DNA from: Dehalococcoidales bacterium
Lineage (GTDB): Bacteria > Chloroflexota > Dehalococcoidia > Dehalococcoidales > CSSed11-197
Assembly (NCBI GenBank): GCA_028716145.1
Contig: JAQUQL010000006.1
Span: forward strand, 1 to 34,129
DNA: 34,129 nt
Direction: 5' to 3'
The translations under genes were made by a program, and so were the position numbers. Position 1 is the first letter of the stretch, and every line of letters starts with the position of its first letter. This document shows, piece by piece, positions 18,098-33,462 of the stretch. The notes under the pieces were generated by a model, which worked only from the letters and a program-made list of their open reading frames with translations, ran no database searches and was not told the origin of the DNA.

Positions 18098-19069
18098 TTA
18101 AGCCAGCCCCATTACCCGGCGGACCTCATCCATCGTCTTACGGGCAATCATACCGGCTTTTTCAGCTCCTTCACTTAGTACCTGGTTTACCAGTTCTGGC
18201 TGCTGTTCCAGCTCCCGGCGCCGCTCTCTGATTGGTTCAAGTTCCTGGTTCATTTTCTCTGCCAGACGCTTCTTACAATCTACACACCCAATGGTTGCGT
18301 TGCGGCAATTTCCGGCAATTTCATTAACTTCTTCACTATTAAAATATCCATGCAGCCGATAAACGTTGCAAATATCGGGGTTGCCTGGATCAGACCGAAA
18401 CTTTCGTGAAGGATCAGTAACAGCTCCCATAATCTTTTTAGTTGTCTCCTGGGCAGTTATGGCAAGTTCTATCAGGTTTCCAGTCTGCTTGCTCATTTTT
18501 TCTCCATCAAGACCTTGCACAATCGGGAAATCAGTAAGGCGCCCTTCAGGTTCAGGAAATACCGGGCTGAACCTGGTATTAAACCTTCTGACGATCTCCC
18601 GTGTAAGTTCCAGATGCGGCAACTGGTCCTGGCCAACAGGAACTGCTTCTGCTTTGTAAAGTAGAATATCTGCCGCCATAAGGACCGGGTATCCCACCAG
18701 ACCGTAGTTAACGTTATGGGGCTGGAGTTTAACTTTTTCTTTGAAAGTCGGCACCCTGAGCAGCCAGCTCAAAGGGGTAATCATAGACAGGTATGTATTG
18801 AGTTCAGCAACCTCGGGAACATGAGATTGCACAAACAGAATGCTTTTTTGCGGGTCGATCCCCCCTGCCATAATATCCATAACCATCTCGCGGGTGAGAC
18901 GGTTTAATTGCGAATTATCTTCCAGAGAAGTCAGCGCATGGATGTCCACCACACAATATACACAATCAAATTCGTCCTGCATATTAACCCAGTTCTGCAA
19001 AGCACCAAGATAATTTCCAATGTGCAGTCTACCGGTAGGACGCATGCCCGAAAAAATGCGCTTCTTCAT
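18098..19069 (-). CDS. trpS: Tryptophanyl-tRNA synthetase
   Basis: FSGMRPTGRLHIGNYLGALQNWV, KMSKQTGN, VGQDQLPHLELTREI. Confidence 0.97.
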   Translation of the reverse strand: MKKRIFSGMRPTGRLHIGNYLGALQNWVNMQDEFDCVYCVVDIHALTSLEDNSQLNRLTREMVMDIMAGGIDPQKSILFVQSHVPEVAELNTYLSMITPLSWLLRVPTFKEKVKLQPHNVNYGLVGYPVLMAADILLYKAEAVPVGQDQLPHLELTREIVRRFNTRFSPVFPEPEGRLTDFPIVQGLDGEKMSKQTGNLIELAITAQETTKKIMGAVTDPSRKFRSDPGNPDICNVYRLHGYFNSEEVNEIAGNCRNATIGCVDCKKRLAEKMNQELEPIRERRRELEQQPELVNQVLSEGAEKAGMIARKTMDEVRRVMGLA

Positions 19070-26232: not shown

Positions 26233-27138
26233 TTATGCCAGGTAAATAATAGCAATGCCGACAATTATAAAAAGCACGGCAACAAATTTGTATCCAAGCG
26301 CGCGCCTGTCGGACTGCCAAAAAACAAACCCGGGAAACAGCCGGCTCAAAATAATTGCAACACCAAACACAAACACCGGGCGCGAAGCGAGAATGGTTGA
26401 AACCAGCGAAATAGGGCCGTTTTTCATCGCCCAGAAACCCAGCATGGAAGCACCAAGCACAAGGCTCTCGTTTAATACCAGCAATGCGGTTGCCTTGCGC
26501 GGATTTTCTATGTTCTTATAGCTTCTGATTACGCTTGGCCTGAGTGAGATACACAGGGAAATCACTACCAGCACCAGCATGCTGACCCAGTAAAGAGTAA
26601 ATGAGGATATTTCTTCCAGAGCGTATTTGGCGGAAAGATCGGACCCGGCAAAAAGCAATGCAGCTATTATCAACAGAGGGAAATTTTTACCCAACCATCT
26701 GCCGTTGCCGCTGGATCTGGGGCGCAAGGCAACCGTGGCGGCACCAAAAACCACAACAATAATCGCCAGCCACTGCCAGATGTTCAGGGTTTCACCCAGC
26801 AAGGGCATAGCCGCAAGAGCAACAAATACAGGGTAGGTATAGATAAGCGGCACCACCCCAACTACTTCTTCACTCTTGAAGCTGAAAATCATAAGTAAAA
26901 CTGCTCCTGCTCTCATCAATGCAGAAACAAGAGCGCTTGCCACTATCGTAGAGGCCAGGCCTTCAGGAAACGGAAAAAGATAGACAAAAGGCTGGATCAA
27001 AACCAGTATGACTATGGAAAAAGCCAGCAAAAAAGCCCTCACGCCGGGCATTCGCCGGGCTACCAGATGGCTGTCCAGATTGTTTATAAGGCCGTATATT
27101 AAAGAAGCGCCAAGAGCAGCAACAATCCAGTTAACCAA
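26233..27138 (-). CDS. EamA/DMT family transporter
   Basis: About 10 TM helices in two repeats; PLIYTYPVFVALAAMPLLGETLNIWQWLAIIVVVFGA. Confidence 0.85.
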   Translation of the reverse strand: MVNWIVAALGASLIYGLINNLDSHLVARRMPGVRAFLLAFSIVILVLIQPFVYLFPFPEGLASTIVASALVSALMRAGAVLLMIFSFKSEEVVGVVPLIYTYPVFVALAAMPLLGETLNIWQWLAIIVVVFGAATVALRPRSSGNGRWLGKNFPLLIIAALLFAGSDLSAKYALEEISSFTLYWVSMLVLVVISLCISLRPSVIRSYKNIENPRKATALLVLNESLVLGASMLGFWAMKNGPISLVSTILASRPVFVFGVAIILSRLFPGFVFWQSDRRALGYKFVAVLFIIVGIAIIYLA

Positions 27139-27321: not shown

Positions 27322-27390
27322 AGGCTAAATTAATCAATGGTCAGCCCCGGTAAATACAGACACTTAAATACTTGCTTAAGGAGTAGGCCT

Positions 27391-29058
27391 ATGAAGAACA
27401 TGTCTGCTAAATTTACCCTTTCTGTTTTATTGGTTCTTATCCTTGGTCTGGGGATAACCGCCTGCAACAATGGCGGTAATGGTACTACTCTCCCAACCAC
27501 CTCTGCGCCGCCTGCCGAAGCTTCTGCGATGGCCATCATACCGGATGCCCCGGAGATAACCCCCGCAGGAGACCCGGTAAGAGAGCAGTGCACCGGCTGC
27601 CACGCGCAAAACGTTGAAATGATTGACAGTTCCAACCACGCAGTACATGATTGCGCCCAGTGCCACATCCCCGGGGAACACCCCCAAAACCCTCTTCTCA
27701 ACGAATCGGTTGTTAACCAGAGTAATGAGCTATGCGGTGGATGCCACCCCGACCAGTATCGCAGTTTCCACACCATCAACCTTGAATCTGAAGCCAGGGA
27801 AGAAAAAGCAACACCTGTTGGCGTATCCCCGATGTTCGATAAGCTGATGCAACCATATGGCTTCACCAAGGAGCACAACGAACCCCGTTCCCATGCTTTC
27901 ATGCTTCTTGACCACATCACGGTTGACCGAGCTTATGGTGGCCGCTTCCAGCTCGAAAACTGGCAGGATATATTAGCATCAGGGAACATATGGGATATCC
28001 TCACTGACCTTGGCCAGCAATATACACTGCCCGAATCCGCCAAAGCTGCCAACCCGGTATGCCTGACCTGTAAAACTACCGACAATATTCTGGAATGGGC
28101 ATACATGGGAGATTCCCACATGTTTGCAGATTTCGACCGCACTTCAGATGTAGTTGAATTTATACAGGCTGTCGATAACCCGACAATGGGTTGCATCATG
28201 TGCCACGATCCGCATACCACCAGCCACCGTGTTGTTCGTGACGGCTTGATTGATGCTGTTACTCGCGGCGATAATGAAATTTATGCTGATGTCAACGGGG
28301 AAAGTCTCGCAGATATTGACGTAGTAACCTTCAGAAACTTCAGGAAAATCGGCCTGATGGAAGAACCGATAGCCAACATCATATGCGCCCAGTGTCATGT
28401 TGAATATGTCTGCAACCCGGGTTATGACATGGCTACCGGTGAATATATAACCATGGAAGATCCACGCACCAACCACTTCCCCTGGGTTAACGTGTTTGAT
28501 GCTTACGAGCACTATAATGAACTTGGATTCCGCGATTTCAAGCATGCTGTAACCGGTGCAACTCTGGTTAAACTGCAGCATCCGGATGCGGAGACCAACT
28601 ACGGCTCACTCCATCAGCAAAATGGTGTTGAGTGCAGTGATTGCCATATGCCAAAGCTCACAAACCAGGCAGGCGAAATATATACTTCCCACTGGCAAAC
28701 CAGCCCGCGAACCTACATAGACGAGACCTGTCTCAGCTGTCATACCGATTGGACAGAAGAAGAGGCCGAATACCGCATTGATTCTATTCAGAATTATATC
28801 AAGGGCAAGCTTTCCAAGGCAGAATACTGGCTGAGCGAGCTTATCGATACCTTTGACCTGGCCATAAGATACGGGGTAGATGAAGCCACCCTGGACGAAG
28901 CACGGGAATGCCATTCGCAGGCACACATTCTCTGGGAATGGTGGACTGCCGGCAATGGCGGCGGTTTCCACAACCCGGATCAGGCACGGGAAGCTCTTAC
29001 TCGTTCAGTAGAGTTTTCCAAGATGGGTATAGAGATACTCGAAGAAGCCATGAAGTAG
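27391..29058 (+). CDS. Octahaem cytochrome c nitrite reductase-like lipoprotein (ONR/NrfA superfamily)
   Basis: ATG at 27391 after AAGGAG. Lipobox LGITAC. Ordered motifs CTGCH, CAQCH, CGGCH, CLTCK, CIMCH, CAQCH, CSDCH, CLSCH; CAQCHVEYVC and KLQHPDAE match NrfA/ONR active-site regions. Confidence 0.88.
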   Translation: MKNMSAKFTLSVLLVLILGLGITACNNGGNGTTLPTTSAPPAEASAMAIIPDAPEITPAGDPVREQCTGCHAQNVEMIDSSNHAVHDCAQCHIPGEHPQNPLLNESVVNQSNELCGGCHPDQYRSFHTINLESEAREEKATPVGVSPMFDKLMQPYGFTKEHNEPRSHAFMLLDHITVDRAYGGRFQLENWQDILASGNIWDILTDLGQQYTLPESAKAANPVCLTCKTTDNILEWAYMGDSHMFADFDRTSDVVEFIQAVDNPTMGCIMCHDPHTTSHRVVRDGLIDAVTRGDNEIYADVNGESLADIDVVTFRNFRKIGLMEEPIANIICAQCHVEYVCNPGYDMATGEYITMEDPRTNHFPWVNVFDAYEHYNELGFRDFKHAVTGATLVKLQHPDAETNYGSLHQQNGVECSDCHMPKLTNQAGEIYTSHWQTSPRTYIDETCLSCHTDWTEEEAEYRIDSIQNYIKGKLSKAEYWLSELIDTFDLAIRYGVDEATLDEARECHSQAHILWEWWTAGNGGGFHNPDQAREALTRSVEFSKMGIEILEEAMK

Positions 29059-29081: not shown

Positions 29082-29111
29082 TTAATGCGCCGGCTTTTGC
29101 CGGCGCATTAA
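29082..29111 (+). terminator. Perfect 13-bp inverted repeat downstream of the cytochrome gene
   Basis: TTAATGCGCCGGC-TTTT-GCCGGCGCATTAA, 24 nt past the stop; only a weak T tract follows. Confidence 0.65.
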
Positions 29112-31114: not shown

Positions 31115-31474
31115 ATGACAAATACCAGCGAGAATGAGTGCGAGGTAAGGGCGGTCAACAACGAACTGGTTGAGATGTCAAAGAAACGCCTCCCTCCTGA
31201 TGAAAATATTTTCTTATTGTCAGAGACTTTCAATGCACTGGCTGACTCAAACCGCGTTAAAATTCTGCTTGCCCTGAAAAGCCAGGAACTCTGCGTTTGT
31301 GATATAGCAGCTATAACTGGCATTTCTGATTCCGCCACATCCCAGCATTTGCGCTTGCTGAGAACACTTCATATCGTAAAACGACGCAAAGAAGGCCGCA
31401 TGATGTACTATTCACTGAGCGATGACCATATACGAAATCTTTTAGAGATAAGCCTTGAACATACTTCTCATTAG
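31115..31474 (+). CDS. ArsR/SmtB family metalloregulator
   Basis: FNALADSNRVKILLALKSQELCVCDIAAITGISDSATSQHLRLLRTLHIVKRRKEGRMMYYSLSDDHI; ELCVCD metal-binding motif. Confidence 0.93.
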   Translation: MTNTSENECEVRAVNNELVEMSKKRLPPDENIFLLSETFNALADSNRVKILLALKSQELCVCDIAAITGISDSATSQHLRLLRTLHIVKRRKEGRMMYYSLSDDHIRNLLEISLEHTSH

Positions 31475-31521
31475 TACAAATATCCTTGCTCAATATTTTT
31501 TAACCCAATGAGGGCGTTGAT

Positions 31522-33462
31522 TTGACCGCAACCGATAAAAAATCAAAATCCTGCCAAAATAGCGAAGCTTCCCATTGCCATGATTGTGATGAAAAGGTTT
31601 TTAATACCACCCGAGAGCTCTTCTCGATCGGCGTTTCCTTGGTTCTTTTCATTATCGGGATAGTTTTCTATCGGCCTCTCCATGACACGCCTTTCAGCAT
31701 TGGAGAATATGCAGTGCTGATAACAGCATACCTGTTAAGCGGGTGGCAGGTTTTATGGGCAGCTTTGCGCAATTTGACCCATGGGAAAGTGTTTGATGAA
31801 AATTTTCTGATGGCGCTGGCAACAGCCAGCGCCATCGCCATTCACCAGCTGCCGGAAGCGGTTGCTGTTATGCTTTTTTACCGAACCGGCGAATTCCTGC
31901 AGGAGCTCTCGGTCAATCGTTCACGCAGATCGATAAAAGCCCTGCTTGACACACGCCCGGACTATGCCAGCATTATCACTGAAACAGGGCTTAAAAAAGT
32001 CTCGTCCCAGGAAGTGGAGATAGGGGACAGTATAATTGTAAAAACTGGGGAAAGGATCCCGCTGGACGGTATTGTGATGGAGGGGCAAAGCCTGGTTGAT
32101 ACCTCAGCTCTTACTGGAGAATATGTTCCCAGGCACACCAGTAAAGGCGGCATTGTATTGGCCGGAACTATCATTAAGACCGGATCACTAACAATAAAAA
32201 TAACAAAAAAGTTCGCTGATTCCTCAATATCTCAAGTGTTAAATCTTGTGGAAAACTTGACATCCAGAAAGGCCCCTACCGAAAAATTTATTACAAGGTT
32301 CACCAGGTACTACACACCGGCAATTGTCATTAGCGCTCTTTTTGTTGCAATCATCCCTCCGCTGTTTTTCACAGGAGCAACATTTTCCGAGTGGATTTAC
32401 CGGGCCCTTGTCCTGCTGGTGATTTCTTGCCCATGTGCTCTGGTGATAAGCGTGCCTCTTGGATATTTTGGCGGTATCGGTGGAGCTTCTCGCAGGGGCA
32501 TCCTCATAAAAGGCGCAGCCTTTCTTGATACCCTCACTGAAATCAAAACTGCCGTTTTTGACAAGACTGGCACACTTACCAGAGGAGTATTTAAAGTAAA
32601 GGAGATTGTCTCCCACAATGGATATAGCAAGGAAGACCTGCTGAGGCTTTCTGCAATTGCCGAATCCCACTCAAACCACCCGATTGCACAATCCGTTCTC
32701 CAGGCATACGGAAAACAGCCGGACTCTGCCAGTATAAAGGATCATTTTGAATTCCCGGGGATGGGAATCACTGCAAAGATCAACGGGCGTTCAATTATTG
32801 TGGGGAGCGACCGTTTTCTTCACAGGCAGGGCATCTCACACAATGAAGCCGCATACTCGGCAGGAGGAACTGTGGTGCATGTGGCAATTGATGGCAGGTA
32901 CGCTGGATACATTGTTATTTCTGACGAGGTTAAAAGCGACGCAGTGGAAACAATACGCTCCTTGAAGAAGTTGGGGATAAAGGAAACTGTTATGCTCACC
33001 GGAGATACCAGAGATGCTGCGGCAGCTATCGCTAAAAAAGTGGGAATAGACAAGTTCCTTGCCGAACTTCTACCTGAGGATAAAGTAAAAGCTCTTGAAG
33101 CTTTAAAAGCAGGTTCGGGCAAAAAAGAAAAGATCGCTTTCGTTGGAGATGGAATAAATGATGCCCCGGTGATTGCTCTTGCCGATGTCGGCATAGCCAT
33201 GGGAGGCCTTGGTTCTGATGCAGCAATCGAGACCTCAGATGTGGTAATTATGACCGATGCTCCTTCAAAACTACCTGAGGCAATCAAACTTGCAAGAAAA
33301 ACACGAGCTATTATATGGCAGAATATCGCACTGGCGTTTGTGATAAAGGGGGTTTTCATATACCTGGGTATTGCAGGAATAGCGACCATCTGGGGAGCAG
33401 TATTTGCAGATGTGGGCGTAGCTCTGCTGGCAGTACTAAACTCTACCCGGGCTATGAGATAG
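31522..33462 (+). CDS. Heavy-metal translocating P-type ATPase (Zn/Cd/Pb class)
   Basis: TGEYVP, CPCALVIS, FDKTGTLTRG, HPIAQSV, GDGINDAPVIALADVGIAMG; short Cys/His N-terminus (SCQNSEASHCHDCDEK), no typical GMxCxxC HMA domain; TTG start. Confidence 0.94.
   Translation: MTATDKKSKSCQNSEASHCHDCDEKVFNTTRELFSIGVSLVLFIIGIVFYRPLHDTPFSIGEYAVLITAYLLSGWQVLWAALRNLTHGKVFDENFLMALATASAIAIHQLPEAVAVMLFYRTGEFLQELSVNRSRRSIKALLDTRPDYASIITETGLKKVSSQEVEIGDSIIVKTGERIPLDGIVMEGQSLVDTSALTGEYVPRHTSKGGIVLAGTIIKTGSLTIKITKKFADSSISQVLNLVENLTSRKAPTEKFITRFTRYYTPAIVISALFVAIIPPLFFTGATFSEWIYRALVLLVISCPCALVISVPLGYFGGIGGASRRGILIKGAAFLDTLTEIKTAVFDKTGTLTRGVFKVKEIVSHNGYSKEDLLRLSAIAESHSNHPIAQSVLQAYGKQPDSASIKDHFEFPGMGITAKINGRSIIVGSDRFLHRQGISHNEAAYSAGGTVVHVAIDGRYAGYIVISDEVKSDAVETIRSLKKLGIKETVMLTGDTRDAAAAIAKKVGIDKFLAELLPEDKVKALEALKAGSGKKEKIAFVGDGINDAPVIALADVGIAMGGLGSDAAIETSDVVIMTDAPSKLPEAIKLARKTRAIIWQNIALAFVIKGVFIYLGIAGIATIWGAVFADVGVALLAVLNSTRAMR

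Follow-up and report, generated by a model that had tools for sequence, protein, structure and literature searches.

An octahaem nitrite reductase by family, with a predicted lipid anchor, in uncultured Dehalococcoidales

Octahaem nitrite reductases (ONRs) are defined by a characteristic order of haem-binding motifs, namely three CXXCH, one CXXCK and four CXXCH (PMC10716430). The survey that uses this definition traced onr genes to one archaeal and 14 bacterial phyla, mostly in Gammaproteobacteria and desulfuromonads; Chloroflexota and Dehalococcoidia are not mentioned in its main text, and the phylum list in its supplement may include Chloroflexota. The ONR of Thioalkalivibrio nitratireducens (TvNiR; PDB 2ot4) is a soluble hexamer that reduces nitrite, hydroxylamine, sulfite and peroxide (PMC5433712), and the enzyme of Trichlorobacter ammonificans (TaNiR; 8rv0) is a further representative. 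The pentahaem nitrite reductase NrfA has a homologous five-haem core in which the active-site Arg, Tyr and His are conserved, as is Lys in most sequences, but it differs from ONRs in haem number and in having Phe or Met where they have Cys. In Dehalococcoidia metagenome-assembled genomes (MAGs), nrfA has been described as limited and inconsistent (PMC11650866), and our searches of open-access literature found no report of an ONR in Dehalococcoidales.

Here, we analyse a 34,129-nucleotide window, contig C6 of a 1.33-Mb, 93% complete Dehalococcoidales MAG, in which an original prediction had proposed a solitary, membrane-anchored, ONR-like enzyme.

Family assignment and active-site residues

The open reading frame at 27391-29058 on the forward strand encodes a 555-amino-acid lipoprotein precursor with eight haem-binding motifs, starting at residues 67 (CTGCH), 88 (CAQCH), 115 (CGGCH), 224 (CLTCK), 268 (CIMCH), 332 (CAQCH), 415 (CSDCH) and 447 (CLSCH). 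Translation thus bears out, to the base, the predicted order of three CXXCH, one CXXCK (28060-28074) and four CXXCH, which is that of the ONR definition. The motifs cannot be ascribed to chance because in 20,000 shuffles of the same residues C..C[HK] motifs numbered 0.05 on average and never more than 2.

The best match in a phmmer search of the PDB was TvNiR (E=5.7e-165, over residues 65-554), followed by TaNiR (E=3.7e-155), and NrfA entries first appeared at 1.3e-31. The protein is 52% identical to TvNiR over 488 aligned residues, 47% to TaNiR and 45-50% to the further ONRs sampled outside Dehalococcoidales, against 22-29% to NrfA; searches of plasmids yielded only NrfA-level matches, with at most 29% identity, and viral contigs gave no ONR match. 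In a maximum-likelihood tree built from a MAFFT alignment of 13 ONR and 21 NrfA rows, the two families separate at 100/100 and the protein falls on the ONR side, so that phylogeny, named beforehand as a possible refutation, sustained the assignment. The four Dehalococcoidales ONRs form a group of their own (98/99), set apart from the remaining ONRs in the sample (85/86), and the depth of this branch is provisional given the small sample of 13 rows, some of them partial, with a bias to Rhodocyclaceae; TvNiR and TaNiR entered the alignment as aligned portions rather than whole chains.

All six TvNiR active-site positions that we checked in this alignment (131, 188, 303, 305, 360 and 361) are conserved, and the residues singled out in the original prediction, namely the CLTCK lysine, the Tyr-Val-Cys following the sixth motif and the Gln-His of KLQHPDAE, all have their TvNiR counterparts. 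Arg180 (27928-27930) aligns with TvNiR Arg131, and Lys228 in the motif of the predicted catalytic haem 4 (28060-28074) with Lys188; Tyr339-Val340-Cys341 (28405-28413) corresponds to Tyr303-Asn304-Cys305 and Gln396-His397 (28576-28581) to Gln360-His361, all on the forward strand. His397, the catalytic histidine of the ONR definition, lies between haem sites 6 and 7 (residues 332 and 415), and the histidines that are invariant across complete ONR rows, proximal and candidate distal ligands among them, are all present. The position of Cys341 is occupied by Cys in 13 of 13 ONR rows and by Phe or Met in all 21 NrfA sequences; accordingly, the Tyr-x-Cys arrangement is a trait of the family, common to every ONR row sampled, and no peculiarity of this protein. 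A review describes this tyrosine of the octahaem enzyme as covalently bound to a cysteine (PMC12285233), and by analogy Tyr339 and Cys341 probably form a thioether link. An AlphaFold model from a 10-row alignment (mean pLDDT 38) was too poor for use, and the predicted proximity of Tyr339 and Cys341 to haem 4 comes from alignment with the solved homologue.

Taken together, homology, haem order, active-site residues and placement in the ONR clade identify the protein, by its sequence, as an octahaem nitrite reductase; the features of NrfA, namely five haems, Phe or Met at the position of Cys341 and membership of the NrfA clade, are not those found here.

The gene, its lipid anchor and its predicted function

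A second possible start, the ATG at 27337, lies upstream of 27391, but the latter is favoured because AAGGAG immediately precedes it and homology with relatives begins there. The signal peptide (27391-27465, forward strand), LGLGITA|CNN, ends in the predicted lipobox GITA|C at Cys25, which is kept in both complete ONRs from the same genus. Unlike these, the proteobacterial (Rhodocyclaceae) and desulfuromonad ONRs that we retrieved, including a relative of TaNiR, have signal peptides without the lipobox cysteine; TaNiR, which is otherwise alike in architecture and active site, also belongs to a separate branch of the ONR tree. TvNiR matches the Dehalococcoidales enzyme in haem number and order and in the positions of the active-site Arg, Lys, Tyr, Cys, Gln and His, and differs from it in being soluble and in its host. 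Chloroflexi genomes have been predicted to belong to single-membrane-bound cells (PMC3971608), for which lipid anchoring makes sense. Lipid-anchored pentahaem NrfA-like proteins also occur in another Dehalococcoidales genus, on two contigs of one genome, G084 (L037:507-1694 and L038:2263-3486); they have Thr at the active-site Gln position and sit on a very long branch.

Transcription of the ONR gene is probably monocistronic, since an intrinsic terminator with a 13-bp stem (29082-29111, forward strand) directly follows it and the upstream neighbour, a gene for an EamA-family transporter (26233-27138, reverse strand), is divergent. Upstream of the ONR gene, a search for FNR boxes showed no enrichment, the single match with two mismatches being at chance level, and we found no regulatory site above chance. 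As predicted, the window contains no further multihaem reading frame that could supply a cytochrome partner: the sole other C..C[HK] motif, one copy in a 323-amino-acid frame (18098-19069), probably occurs by chance. Further downstream, at 31115-33462, an ArsR-family regulator precedes a P-type ATPase in what is probably a metal efflux pair.

We put at about 0.9 the probability that this is a genuine octahaem nitrite reductase, exported, tethered to the membrane by a lipid and, by homology, converting nitrite to ammonium. Its most likely role, judged from sequence, is that of a stand-alone membrane-tethered reductase of nitrite and hydroxylamine to ammonium. The anchor would hold the soluble catalytic domain of the enzyme at the outside of the cell's single membrane, where it would receive electrons from a donor in the membrane that is not NrfH. 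Haems 1-3 and 5-8, with bis-His ligation, would deliver six electrons to haem 4, whose Lys228-ligated iron would bind nitrite while Arg180, Tyr339, the latter probably thioether-linked to Cys341, and His397 hold and protonate it. Nitrite, and probably also hydroxylamine, would thus be converted to ammonium with no intermediates released.

Both molybdopterin enzyme matches in the host genome (G000) carry one in-frame TGA and fit selenocysteine formate dehydrogenases; no nitrate reductase is evident, and such an enzyme is likely absent from this genome, an incomplete MAG. Therefore, the use of external nitrite, as an electron sink or for detoxification, appears likelier than full nitrate ammonification. 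The same observation favours a rival view to which we give somewhat less than even odds, namely that the protein is an ONR by descent whose main task in vivo is the detoxification of hydroxylamine, NO or peroxide, or the reduction of sulfite, rather than energy-yielding nitrite ammonification. The isolation of the gene, with its own terminator, is in line with such a role, as are the activities of ONRs in vitro towards hydroxylamine, sulfite and peroxide (PMC5433712) and the position of one congener's ONR next to a regulator of the Crp/FNR type and to a cassette that includes a haem O synthase; the physiological substrate could also differ, given that the Dehalococcoidales ONRs branch apart from the other sampled ONRs (45-52% identity). 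Against it, the same residues carry out nitrite reduction in TvNiR, and the upstream region shows no regulatory site above chance. Reduction of nitrite to ammonium, whether for respiration or for detoxification, remains the reading that we prefer.

Host, locus and distribution

The host belongs to Dehalococcoidales, in agreement with the original suggestion of a Chloroflexota-like organism; its named neighbours are the MAGs Dehalococcoidales STF2_53 and Dehalococcoidaceae Zod_Metabat.406. ONRs are present in four of the six genomes of the host genus, one copy being cut by a contig end. Among 400 Chloroflexota genomes searched, ONR-level matches were confined to this genus and matches elsewhere were NrfA-level. 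The EamA gene is near the ONR gene, on the same contig, in two congeners: it recurs together with the radical SAM and Memo/AMMECR1 neighbours in G004, and in G001 five genes lie in between. This synteny indicates that the locus is native to its host. Values of dN/dS among congeners are 0.02-0.07, with synonymous sites near saturation in several pairs, and the gene is under strong purifying selection in the genus.

The patchy distribution of ONRs in the phylum could be taken to mean that the contig is a binning error carrying a gene from another organism. We consider this very improbable and reject it, since the EamA, radical SAM and Memo/AMMECR1 neighbours are syntenic with independent Dehalococcoidales MAGs and the GC3 of the gene is like that of its neighbours. 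Least credible of all is the view that an NrfA-type pentahaem enzyme gained an N-terminal domain independently within Chloroflexota, which would fit the Pfam Cytochrom_C552 match at residues 214-547 and the presence of NrfA in other Chloroflexota but is rejected by the tree, which parts the protein from Chloroflexota NrfA at 100/100, by the restriction of Cys341 to ONRs, and by an identity of about 27% to Chloroflexota NrfA versus 45-52% to ONRs, three-haem N-terminal domain included.

Haem maturation, electron supply and an associated cassette

For the maturation of c-type cytochromes, the host genome has System I, with a single CcmF: contig C52 encodes CcmF and CcmC, along with reading frames recognized by eye as CcmA, CcmB and CcmE. 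Besides this CcmF, we saw no dedicated CXXCK haem lyase in the genome. In two Rhodocyclaceae loci (L013 and L015), a 636-amino-acid CcmF/NrfE-like frame, also recognized by eye, lies directly 3' of the ONR gene.

In three Chloroflexota loci that we read, a four-haem NrfH-like gene precedes nrfA. In contrast, none of the six genomes of the host genus, all incomplete MAGs, has a match to the NrfH/NapC family (PF03264), for which an E. coli control was positive; this absence and the terminator right behind the gene agree with a solitary enzyme. Candidate electron donors are an NrfD-type complex and a small multihaem lipoprotein. An NrfD-family membrane protein is encoded on contig C11 of the host genome, and in G004 such a protein lies close to a molybdopterin dehydrogenase with an in-frame TGA. 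The lipoprotein frame, near ccmE on C52 (L031:7772-8371), has a PTT/PTE repeat linker and a CX4CH motif and is a possible electron carrier. A MenA-like protein scored under curated cut-offs, and a PF09699 search for multihaem proteins, an incomplete inventory, returned the ONRs themselves as its strong matches.

Directly upstream of the ONR gene in G001 lies a cassette (L010:1783-5865) that encodes a 208-amino-acid transmembrane protein, a membrane protein of about 490 amino acids, an FGE-sulfatase-like lipoprotein and a haem O synthase; it is also present in G004 (L036:305-4352). The large membrane protein, 493 amino acids in G001 (L010:2553-4031), has seven invariant histidines (71, 127, 225, 227, 281, 378 and 380), some in a G-H-W-H motif, and found no trustworthy match in Pfam, NCBIfam or the PDB, profile searches included. 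It was not found in the window genome. Its homologues (L093-L108; L109-L114) occur in 16 of 400 Chloroflexota genomes, and the loci that we read retain most of the cassette; 13 of the 16 genomes also have NrfA, an association that perhaps reflects shared descent because most of them come from one family. Of the observations made here, the cassette is the least explained, and it may exceed the ONR in novelty. It is conceivable, but in our estimate unlikely, that it encodes an unrecognized haem-copper-like NO or oxygen reductase accompanying ammonifying nitrite reductases, as part of a wider Chloroflexota N-oxide module of which the window genome has kept the ONR alone. G004 also carries a cytochrome oxidase-like cluster that includes a CtaB-like gene and one for a monohaem cytochrome (L089:2777-8156; recognized by eye), which suggests oxygen tolerance in a Dehalococcoidales congener.

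The kind of enzyme and its chemistry are already known; what sets this ONR apart is the unexpected host and, as the main difference, the lipid anchor. Dehalococcoides in culture and their kin are not known to have c-type cytochromes, and the haem-lyase family PF01578 gave no match in two Dehalococcoidales genomes that each consist of one contig. The present findings point to sister lineages equipped both with System I for cytochrome maturation and with a predicted ammonifying nitrite reductase. They also raise the question of haem attachment to CXXCK by a lone CcmF, which the review suggests for Shewanella oneidensis, where one CcmF would serve both types of haem motif (PMC12285233). For uncultured Dehalococcoidales, they suggest a possible role in the nitrogen cycle.
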